Source of the DNA: Bittarella massiliensis (ex Durand et al. 2017) | Lineage (GTDB): Bacteria > Bacillota > Clostridia > Oscillospirales > Ruminococcaceae | Assembly (NCBI RefSeq): GCF_001486165.1 | Contig: NZ_LN908976.1 | Coordinates: 558,071 to 622,070 of the forward strand | DNA: 64,000 nucleotides | Reading direction: 5' to 3' | Shown: positions 19,722 through 56,291 of the stretch, piece after piece | Layout: every line of letters begins with the position of its first letter | Position numbering within the stretch: position 1 is the stretch's first letter | The notes under the pieces: generated by a model | What the model was told of the DNA's origin: nothing | Databases searched by the model: none | What the model saw: only the letters and a program-made list of their open reading frames with translations | Program-made: the position numbers and the translations under genes

Positions 19722-20906
19722 TTAGGCAAAAATCATGGGCGCCACCACCCCGGCCAGCACCACCGAGGCCACGCTCACGGTGGTCACCCCGGCGATGAGC
19801 ATTTTGGGCAGCACGTAGTCGGTGAGGCGCTGCACCTCCTGCTCGGTGTAGTCGCCGCCGTCGGTGACCCCCTGGACGACCTCCATGGCCACCGTGTAGG
19901 TGATGGGGTAGCCGAACATGCAGGAGAAGCCAGCCGCGATGGAGAGGGCGGGGCTCCATTTGAAGAGTTTCCCCACCACCACCGAGAAGACAGTGATGCC
20001 CAGCGCCGAAATCAGCAACATCCCGAAGACCGGCACCAGGATGCTGGCAAACTGGGAGAAGGACATGGTCAAAAAGCTGACCGAGCAGTAGGCGTAGGTG
20101 GCCAGCAGGATCACCCCGTCGCCCCCCGCTTTGGCGAGGGCGTTTTTGTCCACCACGCCGGTGGCCGAGGCCAGCGCCCCGAAGAGGAGATAGACGATGG
20201 TGGCGTTGAGGCCGGTGGCCGAGGCGGCCAGTTCGGCCAGCCCCGCCACCAAAGCCAGGCGGGCAAAGTGGGCGAAGGGGCTGTCCAGCCCTTTAGGGGT
20301 CTTGGGGAGGAAGTGGAGGTCGATGCGGCGGCCGCCCTCCTCGGCGGCCCGCTTCAGGTTGCCCTCAGAAGCGTACTTGGTGGCCGCCTTTTTCAGGCAG
20401 AAGGAAGAGATGGGCAGGCCGATGATCACCTGCAGGGCGTTGACCGCCGCCACATAGGAGGCCACGTCGGGCCGGCCGGCGGCGGTGGCCGCGTCGCTGG
20501 TGATGATGGTGGCCACCACCCCGCCGGAGACCGGGGGCAGCGCCGAGAGGGCCAGTTCCCGGCCAAAGATGAGCTGGCCCAGGGTGAAGCCCAGCACCAG
20601 AATGCCGATCACCGCCGCCAGGGCCACCAGGATGGTCCTCCACTCCTTTTTCAGCTCGTTGAGGTCCAGGGTGGAACCCAGGTTGGTGAGGATCAGCCCC
20701 ATGCCGAAGGTGGGGATGATGGCGTTGAGGCCAGAGGTGTCCATCAAGTCGGCGGGCAGCACCTTGAGCACGCCGCCGAAGAGCACGAAGAGCACGATGG
20801 CGACGATGAAGGCGGAGATGATGCCCTTGGTTTTGCGGGCCACCAGGTCGCCCAGGGCAAAGACGATGGCGACCACGGCAAAGGCCAGAATGGGGGTAAA
20901 GGTCAT
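19722..20906 (-). CDS. Multi-spanning membrane transporter, T-box controlled (candidate tryptophan transporter)
   Basis: 394 residues with about 10-11 hydrophobic segments and a central break (KYASEGNLKRAAEEGGRRIDLHF) between two halves that each carry a glycine-rich motif (FGMGLILTNLGSTLDL, LPPVSGGVVATIITSDAATAAG; YLLFGALASATGVVDKNAL). The two-half layout recalls GltS/ESS-like and related carriers, but I do not recognise the exact family. AGGAGGACTGAACACC precedes the ATG. Its leader contains a T-box whose specifier reads UGG (Trp), so expression should rise when charged tRNA-Trp is scarce. Uptake of tryptophan or a precursor is the inferred role. Confidence 0.6.
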   Translation of the reverse strand: MTFTPILAFAVVAIVFALGDLVARKTKGIISAFIVAIVLFVLFGGVLKVLPADLMDTSGLNAIIPTFGMGLILTNLGSTLDLNELKKEWRTILVALAAVIGILVLGFTLGQLIFGRELALSALPPVSGGVVATIITSDAATAAGRPDVASYVAAVNALQVIIGLPISSFCLKKAATKYASEGNLKRAAEEGGRRIDLHFLPKTPKGLDSPFAHFARLALVAGLAELAASATGLNATIVYLLFGALASATGVVDKNALAKAGGDGVILLATYAYCSVSFLTMSFSQFASILVPVFGMLLISALGITVFSVVVGKLFKWSPALSIAAGFSCMFGYPITYTVAMEVVQGVTDGGDYTEQEVQRLTDYVLPKMLIAGVTTVSVASVVLAGVVAPMIFA

Positions 20907-21138: not shown

Positions 21139-21458
21139 AAAAAATCCCCTGTCCCAGCAATTTCTGCTGGGACAGGGGAAACATTCTCCTGCGGTACCAC
21201 CCAAATTGGCGTTTAGACGCCCACTCGCTCCGCACACCACCATGTGCGCTCCCTTGGTAACGGGTGGAGTTCCCGTCGGGCACTACTCGGCCATCCGCCT
21301 TTCGTCCCGCCCTCATGAGTCCATTCAGTCCGGCGCCTTGCCCGCTACGCTCTCACCGCCCGCAGCTCTCTGGAAGGGAGCACTCCGCACCTACTCTTCT
21401 CAATCAACGGTTTTCTGGAATATGGTGTCATTCTACTCCGCCCCCGCCGTCTTGTCAA
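21139..21458 (-). promoter_or_regulatory. T-box leader, specifier UGG (Trp), with promoter
   Basis: Promoter TTGACA (21453-21458), 17-bp spacer, TAGAAT (21430-21435) on the minus strand. Stem I has the 5' AGTA, the AGAGAGC bulge and the 3' GAA motif. The GAA is followed by UGG (plus-strand 21321-21323) and then A, the usual specifier position. The T-box sequence TGGTACCGC is at 21191-21199. The terminator (21145-21159 with 21165-21179, then T6) competes with the antiterminator. It controls the membrane protein at 19722-20906. Confidence 0.92.
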
Positions 21459-22010: not shown

Positions 22011-23135
22011 TTACGAGAGGGGCGGGACCGTCTCCTCCTGCCCGGAAGCGCTCACCCCGTCGGGTGTGCAGTAGAGGGGGGACGTGGTCGTCTTTCCCTC
22101 CAGGGCCGCCCGCACCGCGTCGGCCACCTCCTGCCGGGAGGTGCCGGCCGCCACGGTGAGTTCCCCCACCTTGGTGCCGCTGGGCACGCCGGTCTCCCCC
22201 ACGTCCACGTAGAGCCGATCGGCCTTCAGGGCCCGGTAATCCACCCCGTTTACCTGTTCGGCCAACATCCAGGGGCTGGCCGGGTAGTAGAGGCTCAACT
22301 CGGCCCCCGATCCCTTGGCGCTCTGGGCGATCCCATCGATGGAGGCCTGCAGCGCCTGCTGGGCGGTGGTGCCGCCGGAAAGGCCGTAGCCCGCGTCCTT
22401 CAGGAAGGTGGCCACCGGGTAGGTGGCGTCGGCGAGGATGATCTCTTTGACCCCCTTCTGCCCCAGTTCGGCACACAGGGCCTTCAGGTAGGTCTGGGCG
22501 CTCTGCGCGTTGGGGTTGAGCCAGGGCTTGCCCCCGGCCTGGGCGGTGTTGTCCAGCCAGAGGACCCCCGCCTGGTTTTTGTAGAGGACCGCCGCGGTCT
22601 TGTCGTAGCGGGAGACCAGGGGGTCTTTAAAGGCCGACAGCTGAGCCGCCACCTCGATCCCCTTTTCGGAAAAGGCGCTGACCACCCGGTCCAGGTCGAT
22701 GCCGCCGGCCGCCACGGCCCCGGCTGCCTGGGCGGTGGCCACCCCGGTGTTGTAGTGCACCATCCCCTCGCTGTCCTTGAGGGGGAGCACCGCCCGGGTG
22801 ACTCCGGCGGCTTCCAGCCGCTGGGCGGTCTCGGCGATCTTGGCCTCATCGGCGAGGTCGCTCAGGGAGACCCTGGCGTAGACGGGCGCCTTCTCCTCCT
22901 GGGGCGGCGTCTCCTCCTCGCCGGTCTGGCCGGGGTCCTGCGCCGGTTGGGAGGTGGGCGGCTTCTCCCCGGTGTAGACGCCGTTTAAGAAGTTGACCAG
23001 GGGGCGGTAGGCGGCAAAGCCCACAAAGGCGAGCACCACCAACACCGCACCCCAGATGGCGATATTTCGGATCAGGTTTCGGTTGCTGCTGCGGTAGATC
23101 TTATCGTAGCGCTTGATTTTGTATCGCTTCGCCAT
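22011..23135 (-). CDS. Membrane-anchored glycoside-hydrolase-like protein (possible DUF4015 family)
   Basis: 374 residues. A basic N-terminus (MAKRYKIKRYDKIYRSS) and one transmembrane helix at about 25-45 (IWGAVLVVLAFVGFAAYRPL) are followed by a proline-rich linker (EKPPTSQPAQDPGQ) and an extracellular alpha/beta domain. Segments such as AETAQRLEAAGVTRAVLPLKDSEGMVHYNTG and GIEVAAQLSAFKDPLVSRYD, then GVKEIILADATYPV, follow the TIM-barrel pattern of putative glycoside hydrolases of the DUF4015 type, though divergent. Start at ATG 23135 after GGAGGGAG. Substrate, if any, unknown; peptidoglycan or spore-wall sugars are possible. Confidence 0.6.
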   Translation of the reverse strand: MAKRYKIKRYDKIYRSSNRNLIRNIAIWGAVLVVLAFVGFAAYRPLVNFLNGVYTGEKPPTSQPAQDPGQTGEEETPPQEEKAPVYARVSLSDLADEAKIAETAQRLEAAGVTRAVLPLKDSEGMVHYNTGVATAQAAGAVAAGGIDLDRVVSAFSEKGIEVAAQLSAFKDPLVSRYDKTAAVLYKNQAGVLWLDNTAQAGGKPWLNPNAQSAQTYLKALCAELGQKGVKEIILADATYPVATFLKDAGYGLSGGTTAQQALQASIDGIAQSAKGSGAELSLYYPASPWMLAEQVNGVDYRALKADRLYVDVGETGVPSGTKVGELTVAAGTSRQEVADAVRAALEGKTTTSPLYCTPDGVSASGQEETVPPLS

Positions 23136-23288: not shown

Positions 23289-23897
23289 CTAAAAACTCAA
23301 CTGGTAGCCGGTGAACCCGTAGATGCAGAGGCTGAGGATGCCGATGTAGAGCAGCGTCACCGGCAGCCCCTGAAAGGAGGCGGGGACACTGCGGTTTTTC
23401 AGCTTTCTCTGCCCCTCGGCCACAATGAGGGTGGCCAGGGTGTAGCCCGCGCCGCTGCCCAGGCAGAAGCCGACGGTCTGGGGCAGGGAGAACACCTGCC
23501 CGGAACAGAGCATCAATGTGCCCAGCACGGCGCTGTTGAAGGTGGCCAGGTGAAAGTGGGGGCGCACCTTGGCCTGCCATTTGACAAAGCGGGGAAAGCG
23601 GATGCGGCGGGCGATCCCCGACAGGGCAAAATAGACCGCCACCATGCATAGGATGAACAGGAGCGGCTTGTAGATGTAGGCGTTGACGTCCTGTTGCAGG
23701 GGGAAACTCACCAGATAGGTGAGCAGCGAGGTGAGGGTGACCGAGAGGGTGGTCAGGCAGCCAAAGGTGACCATGGCCCCCATGTCGTCCACCAGCAGCA
23801 GCGTCCGCTCCACCCCCAGGCTGCGGGAGAAGAGGGCATTCTCTGCAAAGATGGCCAGAATGACCGAAACCAGCATGTTTGCTGCGACCTGTGCCAT
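23289..23897 (-). CDS. rnfA: RnfA-like membrane subunit lacking the conserved cysteines
   Basis: 202 residues, six hydrophobic segments, clear RnfA/NqrE family over its length (MGAMVTFGCLTTLSVTLTSLL, TFNSAVLGTLML, SFQGLPVTLLYIGILSL). In RnfA/NqrE two cysteines, in FLGLCPFxGV and TTNCAVLG, bind an iron-sulfur centre shared with RnfE. Here they read FSRSLGV and TFNSAVLG: both are serine. So this subunit should not carry that cluster. It starts 3 bp after rnfE ends and is last in the cluster. No rnfB follows. Confidence 0.85.
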   Translation of the reverse strand: MAQVAANMLVSVILAIFAENALFSRSLGVERTLLLVDDMGAMVTFGCLTTLSVTLTSLLTYLVSFPLQQDVNAYIYKPLLFILCMVAVYFALSGIARRIRFPRFVKWQAKVRPHFHLATFNSAVLGTLMLCSGQVFSLPQTVGFCLGSGAGYTLATLIVAEGQRKLKNRSVPASFQGLPVTLLYIGILSLCIYGFTGYQLSF

Positions 23898-23900
23898 GGC

Positions 23901-24581
23901 TTACTTCCCCTCCTTTTTGTTGATCCAGTGGCGGAAGCTGTTGTTGAGAAAGCGGAAGCCCGCCGCCAGCACGGCGATGAGGAAGAACCCGAAAAAGGGC
24001 AGGGCGATGGAGCGGGAGACCGGCACCACCCCTTTGAGGGTGATCCCCCAGAGCCGCCCGTAGGCCAGCACCTCCCGCAGGGCGCCCACCACGCAGACCA
24101 CCAGGGTGAAGCCCAGCCAGGTGCAAAAGAGGTCCAAAAAGGTGTAGCGGTCCACCCCGAAATGGGTGTAGGAGCTGCACTTGGTCACCACGATCGAGTC
24201 CACGATCAGGATGGGCAGATAGATGCCCACACTGGTGGAGACAAAGGGAAACATCTGCGACAGCCCGTAGGCCACCGGCACAAAGAGCAGGGCCCCCAAC
24301 AGCGCCGTGAGGATGGTGCGGTAGACCGCGTCCACCTTTTTAAAGAGCAGGCTGCCCAGGAGGATGGTGGGCACCACCACCCCCAAAAAGCCCAGGGAGA
24401 GGATGACCCCCGCCTTGAGCGACTGGGTGGCCACGATGGCTGGCGCCAGGGCCAGCCCCTGCATCAAAATCGGGTTTTGGGAGAAGACCCCGTCCACCCG
24501 GCCCAGGTCCTCCTGGTGGCGGCCGAAAAAGAGGCGGCCCCGCTCCTTCCAGGCGCGAAAGCGCCGCTTGAATTTGCTCAC
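23901..24581 (-). CDS. rnfE: RnfE-like membrane subunit lacking the conserved cysteines
   Basis: 226 residues from a GTG start after AAAGGAG. An N-terminal basic extension of about 30 residues precedes the RnfE/NqrD domain (SQNPILMQGLALAPAIVATQ, GIYLPILIVDSIVVTK, VVGALREVLAYG). The family cysteines in LGLCPxLAVT and xTNCIxxGRA are Ala (LALAPAIVAT) and Ser (IVDSIVV). Together with the RnfA changes, all four ligands of the predicted iron-sulfur site are missing. It lies 25 bp after rnfD. Confidence 0.85.
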   Translation of the reverse strand: MSKFKRRFRAWKERGRLFFGRHQEDLGRVDGVFSQNPILMQGLALAPAIVATQSLKAGVILSLGFLGVVVPTILLGSLLFKKVDAVYRTILTALLGALLFVPVAYGLSQMFPFVSTSVGIYLPILIVDSIVVTKCSSYTHFGVDRYTFLDLFCTWLGFTLVVCVVGALREVLAYGRLWGITLKGVVPVSRSIALPFFGFFLIAVLAAGFRFLNNSFRHWINKKEGK

Positions 24582-24606
24582 AGTTGCTTCACTCCTTTCC
24601 GCGCCG

Positions 24607-25563
24607 TCACTGGGAGATCATCCGCAGGCCGCTGTTTCGGTTTTGGAACCAGGCTACCTTGCGGTCGATGAAGGCGGCCATGGCATTGGAGGCGATGGCG
24701 GCAAAGCAGACCCCCATCTCAAAGGCACCGTAGTAGCGAAAGAGCATGGTGATCACCCCGAAGAGGGCCCCGTAGATCAGCCGGGACAGGGGCTGCTTGG
24801 GGGCGGTGATGGGGTCGGTGACCACGAAGAAGGCCGCAAAGACCAGGGTGCCCGAGAGCAGTTCCAGACAGGCCGCGTCCAGCCGGGTGGTGTGCAGCCG
24901 GGGGAAGAGGTAGGAAAAGAGGGCGCAGGCGCCCAAGAAGGAGACCGGCAGCCGCCAGTCGACCGCCTTTTTTACAAAGAGGTAGACCGCCCCCGAGAGG
25001 ACCACCAGCGTCCCCACCGCGCCCAGGGGGCCGGGGTAGTTGCCGATGAGGAATTCCATCTTCTCCACAAAGGGCACCCCGCCGATCTTCATGGTCTTGA
25101 GGGGGGAGTCCACCAGCACCGAGGTCTTTTGCAGGATCAGCGGCACGTTGGTGAAGGGCAGGGGGTAGGAGAACATCAGCTCCGGCCAGAAGAGGGCCAG
25201 GAAGGCCCCGCCCACCGCCGCGGGGTTGAAGATGTTGTTGCCGTAGCCGCCAAAGGCGTTTTTGGCCAGCACAATGGCCACAAAGACACCCACCACCGCC
25301 AGCCAATAGGGGGCGCTGGCGGGGAGGAACATCACCAAAATGGCGCCGGTGACCATCCCCGAGATGTCGTGGCGGTCAAAGCGCTCCTGCCGCATCCGGG
25401 CGGTGAGGGCGTCAAAGAGATAGGAAAACGCCATTGACACCGCCAGCAGGAGGAGGGGGCGAAGGCCGTAGGTGATCACATTCATGAGGAAGATGGGCAG
25501 CATTGCGATGAGCACGTCTTTGGACAGCGCATACCGCCGGTAGAGGGGGGAGGACCGATCCAT
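24607..25563 (-). CDS. rnfD: RnfD-like membrane subunit without the flavin-attachment motif
   Basis: 318 residues, usual RnfD/NqrB size for clostridia. Many hydrophobic segments and the FGGYGNNIFNPAAVGGAFLALFWP motif identify the family. RnfD/NqrB normally carry FMN bound to Thr in an S/T-GAT-P motif after the LPF-TNV-type loop; here that region reads LVDSPLKTMKIGG and no GAT is found anywhere. Start at ATG 25563 after AAAGGAG. First gene of the D-E-A cluster, divergent from the 25608 ORF, so no rnfC is directly upstream. Confidence 0.85.
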   Translation of the reverse strand: MDRSSPLYRRYALSKDVLIAMLPIFLMNVITYGLRPLLLLAVSMAFSYLFDALTARMRQERFDRHDISGMVTGAILVMFLPASAPYWLAVVGVFVAIVLAKNAFGGYGNNIFNPAAVGGAFLALFWPELMFSYPLPFTNVPLILQKTSVLVDSPLKTMKIGGVPFVEKMEFLIGNYPGPLGAVGTLVVLSGAVYLFVKKAVDWRLPVSFLGACALFSYLFPRLHTTRLDAACLELLSGTLVFAAFFVVTDPITAPKQPLSRLIYGALFGVITMLFRYYGAFEMGVCFAAIASNAMAAFIDRKVAWFQNRNSGLRMISQ

Positions 25564-25607: not shown

Positions 25608-25745
25608 ATGACCATTGAGAGGATAGACGCCGACCGCTGGAAGATCGCCCTGGAGGCCGCCGAGTTGCGGGCCCTGCAGATCGGCGAGGGCTGGCGGCCC
25701 GAGGGGGAACCGGCACGACAGGCCATTGCCCGGCTGCTGGCGCGC
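25608..25745 (+). CDS. N-terminal fragment, possibly MecA-like; cut by assembly artefact
   Basis: About 46 residues beginning MTIERIDADRWKIALEAAEL, then WRPEGEPARQAIARLLAR, before the reading runs into adapter-derived sequence. The opening MTIE-RI and the late helix recall the N-terminal domain of MecA adaptor proteins, but the match is short. The ribosome site (GGGGGATGGGACAGCC) is modest. The 3' part is missing because of the mosaic-end artefact at 25746. Confidence 0.4.
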
Positions 25746-25783
25746 CTGTCTCTTATACACATCTAAATTTGTATAAGAGACAG
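25746..25783. other. Tn5 mosaic-end (Nextera adapter) inverted repeat: library/assembly chimera
   Basis: 25746-25764 is the full 19-bp Tn5 mosaic end CTGTCTCTTATACACATCT. 25770-25783 is the inverted 14 bp TGTATAAGAGACAG, with 10 bp between the arms. The conceptual translations contain the strings MCIRDR and VYKRQ known from adapter-contaminated assemblies. Two unrelated ORFs are cut at its two edges. Not a natural element; the flanks may not be contiguous in the genome. Confidence 0.96.
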
Positions 25784-26416
25784 CCACACATCGGGTGCGC
25801 GGGGGTCGGGTTTGCCGAAGATGGCCGAACCGGCCACCAGCACGTTGGCGCCGGCCGCCGTCACCAGCGGCGCGGTGCCCGCATCGATGCCGCCGTCCAC
25901 CTCAATGTCCAGGGAAAGCCCCAGCTCCTCGGCCTTTTTGCGGATGGCCTCGATTTTGGGGATCATGTCGCCCATGAACTTCTGCCCGCCGAAGCCGGGT
26001 TCCACCGTCATCACCAGCACCATGTCCAGCAGGTCCAGGTAGGGGAAGACCGCCTCGGCCGGGGTGCCGGGCTTGACCGACAGGGCCGCCTTGATGCCGT
26101 GGGACTTGATCTTGGCGATGGTCTCGCCCACGTCGCTCTCGCTCTCCACGTGGAAGGTGATCAGGTCGCTGCCGGCGGCGGCAAAGTCGTCGATGTAGCG
26201 CAGCGGCTCGGAAATCATCAGGTGCACGTCAAAAAAGAGGTCGTTTTTCGGCCGCAGGCACTTGACGATGGGCGCCCCCAGGGTCAGGTTGGGGACAAAG
26301 TGGCCGTCCATCACGTCGATGTGCAGCATCTCGGCCCCGGCCTCTTTCATCTGGGCGCACTCGCTCTCCAGATTGGCAAAATCGCAGGACAGAATCGAAG
26401 GTGAAATTTTCAGCAA
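25784..26416 (-). CDS. rpe: Ribulose-phosphate 3-epimerase, C-terminus lost at artefact
   Basis: Nearly complete TIM-barrel epimerase: KISPSILSCDFANL, LHIDVMDGHFVPNLTLGAPIV, DVHLMISEPLRYID, VLVMTVEPGFGGQKF and DIEVDGGIDAGTAPLVTAAGANVLVAGSAIFG with the metal and catalytic residues. It interconverts ribulose-5-P and xylulose-5-P. The protein ends at APDVW and then reads adapter, so the last helix (about 15-20 residues) is missing. Start read as TTG 26416 after AAAGGGG; an upstream ATG at 26449 has no ribosome site. Confidence 0.95.
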
Positions 26417-26457
26417 GGTGGGTAACCCCTTTCTGCAAGTCGCATTCATACAGATAT

Positions 26458-56060: not shown

Positions 56061-56291
56061 CTATAAAAGAGGCAGAAAACGGATGGCTGCTGGCCGCAGC
56101 TCCACGGGAATCTCACCCCGGCCCATGCTGATGGGTGTGCCGCGCAATGCTTTGAGGGCGTTCAACGCGGGAGTCTCATTATCCTGCCTGCGCGTCCTCG
56201 CCCACAGGCTGCCACACCTGTTTTGCGGCCTGATGTTTGTCGCTCTCCTGTTTGGTAGGGGTCCCGTCCTGCGGACTTGCAACAGGGTCAT
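56061..56291 (-). CDS. Doubtful small basic ORF
   Basis: 76 codons, Arg/Pro/Leu-rich, with no ribosome site and an overlapping open frame on the other strand. No family recognised. Listed because it fills the gap between tnpW and the regulators; it may be non-coding. Confidence 0.25.
   Translation of the reverse strand: MTLLQVRRTGPLPNRRATNIRPQNRCGSLWARTRRQDNETPALNALKALRGTPISMGRGEIPVELRPAAIRFLPLL

Follow-up and report, generated by a model that had tools for sequence, protein, structure and literature searches.

An Rnf-related D-E-A operon lacking most or all cofactor ligands in Bittarella massiliensis and related anaerobic bacteria

Described relatives of the operon

The Rnf complex (RnfABCDGE), a ferredoxin:NAD+ oxidoreductase, and the Na+-NQR (NqrABCDEF), both of them redox-driven ion pumps, are the described systems closest to a three-gene operon of Bittarella massiliensis that lies in a stretch of 64,000 nucleotides (GCF_001486165.1, contig NZ_LN908976.1, positions 558,071 to 622,070), analysed at its full length and hereafter termed the window. 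This operon, D-E-A, encodes homologues of RnfD, RnfE and RnfA (D', E' and A'). It is homologous to Rnf, yet stands outside the Rnf complex family as defined by cofactors and subunits. The likeness to Rnf consists of the homologous A, E and D subunits, the Rnf fold in the models of D' and E', and a chromosomal place shared with intact operons of related families. The differences are that D-E-A stands without B and G, that the C subunit is reduced (C') or absent, that D-E-A has lost the [2Fe-2S] ligands and the RnfD flavin motif, and that rnfC, with its flavin mononucleotide (FMN)/NADH site and two [4Fe-4S] clusters, is absent in the window. With the Na+-NQR the operon shares the membrane fold of NqrB, NqrD and NqrE; however, D' and A' are closer by sequence to Rnf than to Nqr, and the cofactor ligands are lost.

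A reduced subunit set is also known from Nqr/Rnf-like flavinylated systems, in which, according to the sections of PMC8238504 and PMC10979944 that describe them, an NqrB/RnfD-like subunit is fused to a PF00175 NAD-binding domain and occurs with an RnfG-like FMN protein, and the flavinylated Thr is likewise unconserved. As presented in those sections, these systems have two subunits, whereas the window-type operon keeps A and E; moreover, D' in the window lacks PF00175, no rnfG match occurs in the 58 loci treated below, and no FMN_bind protein in two carrier genomes (G001 and G023). The urea/ammonium transporter fold (UT-B, AmtB, Rh) provides the next-best structural matches of D' after Rnf and Nqr, but the template modelling (TM) scores are just 0.38-0.50. 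Because RnfD/NqrB has already been related to this fold in the pertinent part of PMC12174285, such likeness is not special to D'. Literature searches limited to open-licence papers listed no description of a comparable operon.

Lost cofactor ligands and retained constraint

The window operon cannot supply a complete Rnf electron route: it encodes neither the donor subunit B nor C nor the periplasmic flavoprotein G, and its A', E' and D' have lost the ligands of the AE cluster and the RnfD flavin motif. The ligands were assessed by aligning A', E' and D' to solved Rnf structures, with the residue numbers of Acetobacterium woodii transferred by alignment from the portions of PMC11889175 that list them. 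None of the four [2Fe-2S] cysteines is kept in the window. In A', Cys25 is replaced by Glu and Cys113 by Ser (SRFLGICPF of RnfA becomes SRSLGVERT, and TTNCAVLG becomes TFNSAVLG); in E', Cys25 is replaced by Ala and Cys108 by Ser (LGMCPTLAVT of RnfE becomes LALAPAIVAT, and VVNCII becomes IVDSIVV). The TTATP loop of RnfD has no counterpart motif in D', which reads SVLVDSPLK without GAT or ATP, and the FMN-Thr column holds Val in one alignment and Ser in the other. A reading made earlier from the letters alone (the sequence-only reading) had claimed adjacent rnfD, rnfE and rnfA homologues on one strand, with all four cysteines replaced and the S/T-GAT motif missing. The frames and gaps are as claimed (A' and E' are separated by 3 bases, E' and D' by 25, and all lie on the minus strand), the solved structures bear out the replacements, and the motif is indeed absent from D', a few relatives having a GAT-like triplet in the loop. 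Cysteines or a GAT at shifted positions, which that reading named as grounds for abandoning it, did not appear: structure-based and clade alignments rule out shifted cysteines, and the Cys of VTKC in E' sits downstream of the ligand column.

The losses were followed in 58 loci, comprising the window, stretches from 15 relatives and 42 named loci found via an alignment of A'; five duplicate genomes are included, and 53 loci remain without them. Before counting, the duplicates L053, L065, L033, L059 and L056 (equal to L013, L014, L015, L018 and L020) and L016 and L039, cut by contig ends, were dropped, as were canonical loci whose rows were incomplete or duplicated (L001, L003, L005, L006, L008, L009 and L105), leaving 51 divergent and 16 canonical rows. 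The canonical rows represent 15 distinct loci (L004 equals L088), and the window and L027 come from different strains of a single species. Both RnfE cysteines are absent from every divergent row (Cys25 0/51, Cys108 0/51), RnfA Cys25 persists in one (L061) and RnfA Cys113 in 26/51, and all four are present in 16/16 canonical rows. Thr156 of RnfD occurs in 0/51 divergent rows (Ser 29, Gly 11, Asn 9, Ala 2) against 16/16 canonical rows in this 51-row alignment. A GAT-like triplet stands in the RnfD loop of L021 (SGAT), L040 (GGAT) and L042 (GAS), alone among 56 D' rows; nearly all matches to a GAT pattern fall in a later GPMGAT helix and not in the flavin loop. A clade with the same substitutions, which the sequence-only reading had proposed to look for by alignment, was thus found, with the losses shared in the 51-row set, and in a quick, unrooted tree with one long row (L011) a single branch (Shimodaira-Hasegawa-like approximate likelihood ratio test 99) splits the 51 divergent from the 16 canonical rows.

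The branch nearest the canonical rows is L025, the locus of genome G023, whose C' is intermediate, retaining the RnfC_N and Complex1_51K domains and passing TIGR01945; for these reasons L025 may be an early or independent case. The E' of this genome (L025:6836-8371) is lengthened at its N-terminus by almost 300 residues, among which Ala, Glu, Pro and Lys are abundant. This extension occupies the position where rnfG would be expected, and a search of it gave no FMN_bind match. A class-wide search with an A' profile covered 291 genomes and matched 211, with scores that cannot split A' from canonical RnfA. B, G, the four cysteines and the flavin Thr are all present at five places outside the family (G091, G058, G221, G166 and G246), which are well-scoring places in that search and not its five best; a sixth fetched place, in G274 of the same family as the window, is another D-E-A followed by X, the DUF4015 gene that lies downstream of A'.

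The carriers are anaerobic bacteria, mostly of the gut, in which a normal Rnf is usually present too. They include Bittarella, Neobittarella, Gemmiger, Anaerofilum, Ruthenibacterium, Pygmaiobacter, Anaerotruncus, Merdimmobilis, Massilioclostridium and Yanshouia, and the operon is found on the complete chromosome of A. colihominis DSM 17241 (L052). The term order here means Oscillospirales of GTDB; NCBI places Anaerotruncus in Oscillospiraceae. When 30 relatives were searched for A/E pairs, divergent and canonical pairs being split by PF02508 score and confirmed on the loci, a divergent pair occurred in 16/30 (14/18 in the family, 2/12 in the rest of the order).

The three membrane genes remain linked and evolve under purifying selection. 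All of them occur in 56/58 loci, the exceptions being the two cut by contig ends, L016 and L039. Ratios of nonsynonymous to synonymous substitution (dN/dS), calculated by the Nei-Gojobori method for 13 hand-picked close pairs with one D and one E value saturated, are 0.046-0.334 for D, 0.087-0.272 for E and 0.046-0.279 for A. Twelve columns are conserved in at least 44/51 divergent and at most 3/16 canonical rows, among them Tyr185 of A' (50/51 against 0/16), Tyr194 of A' (47/51 against 0/16; both positions counted in the aligned stretch), a Pro after TD in D' (45/51 against 0/16) and the Arg of FPR in D' (48/51 against 3/16).

The Rnf fold is predicted to be kept in D' and E', and A' is homologous to RnfA as judged by sequence. 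Single-chain AlphaFold2 models built from 42-row alignments reached a predicted local distance difference test score (pLDDT) of 93.6 and a predicted TM score (pTM) of 0.91 for D', and 91.4 and 0.82 for E'. By query length, the three top matches of the D' model are RnfD chains at TM 0.81-0.82, another RnfD state scores 0.73, and NqrB chains come among and after the RnfD matches; urea, Rh and ammonium channels follow with E-values from 9e-4 upward. The E' model matches RnfE/NqrD at TM 0.69-0.75 by query length. Of the Na+-path residues, the window keeps Arg67 of RnfE and Thr110 and Asn112 of RnfA but has Ser for Glu115 of RnfE; it also keeps both tested riboflavin-site residues of RnfD, Asn123 and Asp249.

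Origin, the C' subunit and the surroundings

The common layout across the 58 loci, with exceptions, is rpe-(mecA-like)-[C']-D-E-A-(DUF4015), with rpe at 54, X at 52, the mecA-like gene at 26 and C' at 29; X is missing at six loci, one of which (L040) stops 0.8 kb past A. That no rnfB, rnfC or rnfG adjoins the window genes, as the sequence-only reading stated, is confirmed, with the qualification that a reduced RnfC-like gene precedes D at those 29 loci. The rnfG profile had 0 matches in the fetched stretches of the 58 loci, and the rnfB profile gave 22 weak matches, every one on C' frames.

Because related families have an intact C-D-G-E-A-B at the equivalent place, the window-type operon looks like an ordinary rnf operon that was cut down. 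In G019, G020, G027 and G028, X comes immediately after an intact C-D-G-E-A-B (in the last, X is partial at a contig end); rpe lies upstream of the intact operon in G020, G018 has an operon of the L026 type and, on a separate short contig, B-X, and the mecA-like gene precedes the intact operon in the more distant G091, G058 and G246. The series CDGEAB-X, C'DEA-X, DEA-X and X alone reads as a stepwise reduction, with an order of events that we infer, and the reduction perhaps came after a second rnf operon had become available. Such an operon, also suggested earlier as a target for searching, exists in the window genome: a complete canonical C-D-G-E-A-B operon with all ligands present (row L026) lies at about G000:C8:431.7-436.8 kb. 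A canonical pair is likewise present in 14/16 genomes with a divergent pair, the exceptions being G001 and G023. G023 (98% complete) has the divergent operon and lacks a canonical A/E pair, a second D, FMN_bind, ApbE and any RnfB scoring above the cut-off. In G001 (84% complete) a canonical pair, an FMN_bind protein and a second RnfD are missing, but ApbE and an orphan RnfB-like polyferredoxin of 264 aa (PF04060 and Fer4; L109:6088-6882) are present. The gene for the latter lies between a zapA-like gene and a putative serS. Separately, G008 has 17 FMN_bind matches in a 3.4 Mb genome, most of them in large frames, which suggests an expanded flavoprotein set.

C' divides the clade into two groups. 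About half of the loci carry it (29/58), and the remainder, including the window, do not. The eight cysteines of two ferredoxin ([4Fe-4S]) motifs are kept in 29/29 C' sequences, duplicates included, and C' is the most constrained subunit (dN/dS 0.029-0.091, 7 pairs). The glycine-rich GxGGAxFP of RnfC, found in 10/11 canonical frames outside the window genome, reads D-ExDG in most C', and ECEP, present in 11/11 canonical RnfC, reads DDEP in most C'. Riboflavin-site Asn123 of D' occurs in 26/26 rows with C' and in 12/25 without (12 His, 1 Ser), and Asp/Glu249 in 26/26 and 23/25, respectively. By contrast, the RnfE pair at positions 67 and 115 (R/K with E/D) occurs in 22/25 rows without C' and in 8/26 with C', Asn112 of RnfA in 25/25 and 22/26, and Thr110 of RnfA (T/S) in 18/25 and 5/26. 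Mean pairwise identity is 0.396 in both sets. The presence of C' requires at least two changes on the tree, L047 standing at an unresolved fork, and Asn123 requires at least four changes inside the C'-less rows. The C' of Anaerotruncus-type genomes (L052:1713-4778, L050, L045 and L048) is extended C-terminally by several hundred residues of repetitive, Ala-rich sequence.

The features of the window around the operon are collected in Table 1. The inverted repeat 0.2 kb upstream of D' is made up of Tn5 (Nextera) mosaic-end adapter sequence. Bittarella massiliensis GGCC_0305 (L027), whose A' is 99% identical to that of the window, is colinear with the window around this scar at about 95%, except for 513 bases absent from the window (L027 4139-4651), which comprise the end of the rpe frame, a spacer and much of the divergent mecA-like gene between rpe and D'. 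X occurs in 14/16 genomes with D-E-A and in 10/14 without, and G014 and G017 have D-E-A but no X. A role as a replacement for RnfG, with which X shares its N-terminal anchor topology, was rejected because X also follows intact operons that have G, occurs by itself in G003, G005 and G025, and is absent in G014 and G017. In other families of the order (L088, L089, L090 and L098), a DUF4015 gene lies directly 3' of intact rnfB. An Rfam scan of the window gave no match at the D-E-A operon. Elsewhere in the window, a T-box leader (RF00230, 99.8 bits; 21165-21416, minus) lies upstream of a permease-like frame at 19722-20906, a putative DUF819 protein, and a match to the pemK cis-regulatory RNA family (RF02913, 41.4 bits) lies at 56102-56182, minus.

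Table 1. Features of the window at and around the D-E-A operon
Feature	Positions	Strand	Match or remark
X, DUF4015 (PF13200) putative glycosidase-like protein	22011..23135	-	membrane-anchored by sequence; downstream of A'
A', RnfA homologue, 202 aa	23289..23897	-	PF02508, 55.7 bits (Pfam)
E', RnfE homologue, 226 aa	23901..24581	-	PF02508, 76.1 bits (Pfam)
D', RnfD homologue, 318 aa	24607..25563	-	PF03116 only, 249.3 bits (Pfam)
Divergent mecA-like gene, 5' part, cut by adapter	25608..25745	+	PF05389 in intact copy L027
Tn5/Nextera mosaic-end inverted repeat, assembly artefact	25746..25783		
rpe (ribulose-phosphate 3-epimerase), 3' end cut by artefact	25804..26449	-	upstream neighbour

Competing explanations and significance

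The best explanation, to which a probability of roughly 0.4 is assigned, is that the operon is a cut-down Rnf derivative that now has a job other than electron transfer across the membrane, with A', E' and D' forming a putative membrane carrier or channel. As suggested by the tree and by chromosomal position, an ordinary rnf operon would have come first, rnfB, rnfG and the cofactor ligands would then have been lost, and C would have been reduced to a [4Fe-4S] protein and finally lost in the window's group. More tentatively, in this group the A/E pair would still switch between inward- and outward-open forms, D would keep its channel-like fold related to urea/ammonium transporters, and the complex might let a cation or small solute through, either by passive flow or by coupling to a second gradient, without electron drive. 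The retained gate residues and the fold of D point towards a carrier or channel but are no proof of one, and this mechanism is the weaker part of the proposal. An extension of it, in which the clade is a natural dissection of Rnf, with the C' group having kept the electron half and relaxed the ion gate and the window's group having kept the gate and dropped the cofactors as a putative redox-free Na+/H+ or small-solute channel or carrier, is unlikely, if still worth entertaining.

Several observations weigh against the carrier or channel explanation. Position 115 of RnfE, a Glu in Rnf, is Ser in the window species, so that the earlier claim of a kept ion-path fold holds for the fold in the D' and E' models and for Arg67, Thr110 and Asn112, and fails at this residue. 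The location of the ion path itself in Rnf and Nqr, in A/E or in D/NqrB, is disputed in PMC11889175 and PMC12174285. The comparison of rows with and without C' essentially sets one group against another and does not amount to many separate events, because it depends on one or two changes of C' on the tree. For the window the earlier claim of lost redox cofactors is apt; roughly half of the clade, however, retains a C' with two [4Fe-4S] motifs. Because both tested riboflavin-site residues are still in place, D' of the window may bind a (ribo)flavin non-covalently. The RnfD loop can be aligned ambiguously, the other alignment giving Thr in the column in 7/56 rows; on this ground and that of the full SGAT of L021, a few relatives may hold covalent FMN. 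Flavinylation of the Ser that possibly occupies the Thr column of the window D' may also be considered, as the window genome has ApbE; however, this enzyme is also needed by its canonical Rnf, no GAT motif surrounds the Ser, and G023 has the same operon without ApbE. The operon is moreover dispensable, since G003, G005 and G025 retain rpe-mecA-X without D-E-A, and X, as an old neighbour at this place and not a specific partner, offers no clean functional clue.

The invariant ferredoxin-motif cysteines of C', its strong constraint, and the presence of Asn123 and Asp/Glu249 in every row with C' would be expected of a residual redox device, in which two [4Fe-4S] clusters of C' exchange electrons with riboflavin in D', confined to the cytoplasmic side and acting as a short wire or a sensor of redox state, and the window's group is a later simplification. 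As an account of the operon this is unlikely: C' is missing from the locus in the window genome, most C' have other residues in place of the FMN/NADH motifs, no outward exit is seen (no G, no AE cluster, and nearly all D' without the flavin motif), and the loss of Asn123 among C'-less rows may reflect just four changes. For the C'-bearing relatives, nonetheless, such a device is as likely as a carrier or channel. The coexistence with a canonical pair in 14/16 genomes, together with the orphan RnfB-like protein kept by G001 without a canonical D, could instead indicate that D-E-A regulates the cell's canonical Rnf or assists its assembly, in mixed complexes that borrow B, C and G. Against this stand G023, in which the operon occurs although canonical Rnf, FMN_bind, ApbE and an RnfB above the cut-off are all missing, and the lack of an FMN_bind protein in G001 at 84% completeness, so that a partner role appears quite unlikely.

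The same coexistence and the graded series ending in X alone would suit a decaying relic that is being lost following its replacement by a second rnf copy. This is very unlikely, given that frames and gene order are maintained across many genera, dN/dS is well below 1, and the clade conserves residues absent from canonical rows. Finally, the mosaic-end scar so close to D' raised the concern, voiced in the sequence-only reading, that an ordinary Rnf has its B, C and G genes on the far side of the artefact, and the further concern of an assembly error; L027 spans the site with only the 513 bases gone, none of them rnf, which rules out hidden genes behind the scar, and the identical layout recurs in other genomes, making the probability of this explanation practically negligible.

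The operon also bears on annotation. D' of the window narrowly passes the NCBIfam rnfD cut-off (209.3 vs 207.05 bits), A' and E' scoring far under their own, and for this reason metabolic reconstructions may wrongly list as an energy-conserving pump an operon incapable of that function. Beyond annotation, a cofactor-poor A-E-D complex that selection maintains in gut bacteria allows ion movement to be considered apart from electron transfer, and a natural dissection of this kind, if true, would reveal which Rnf/Nqr subunit conducts the ion.

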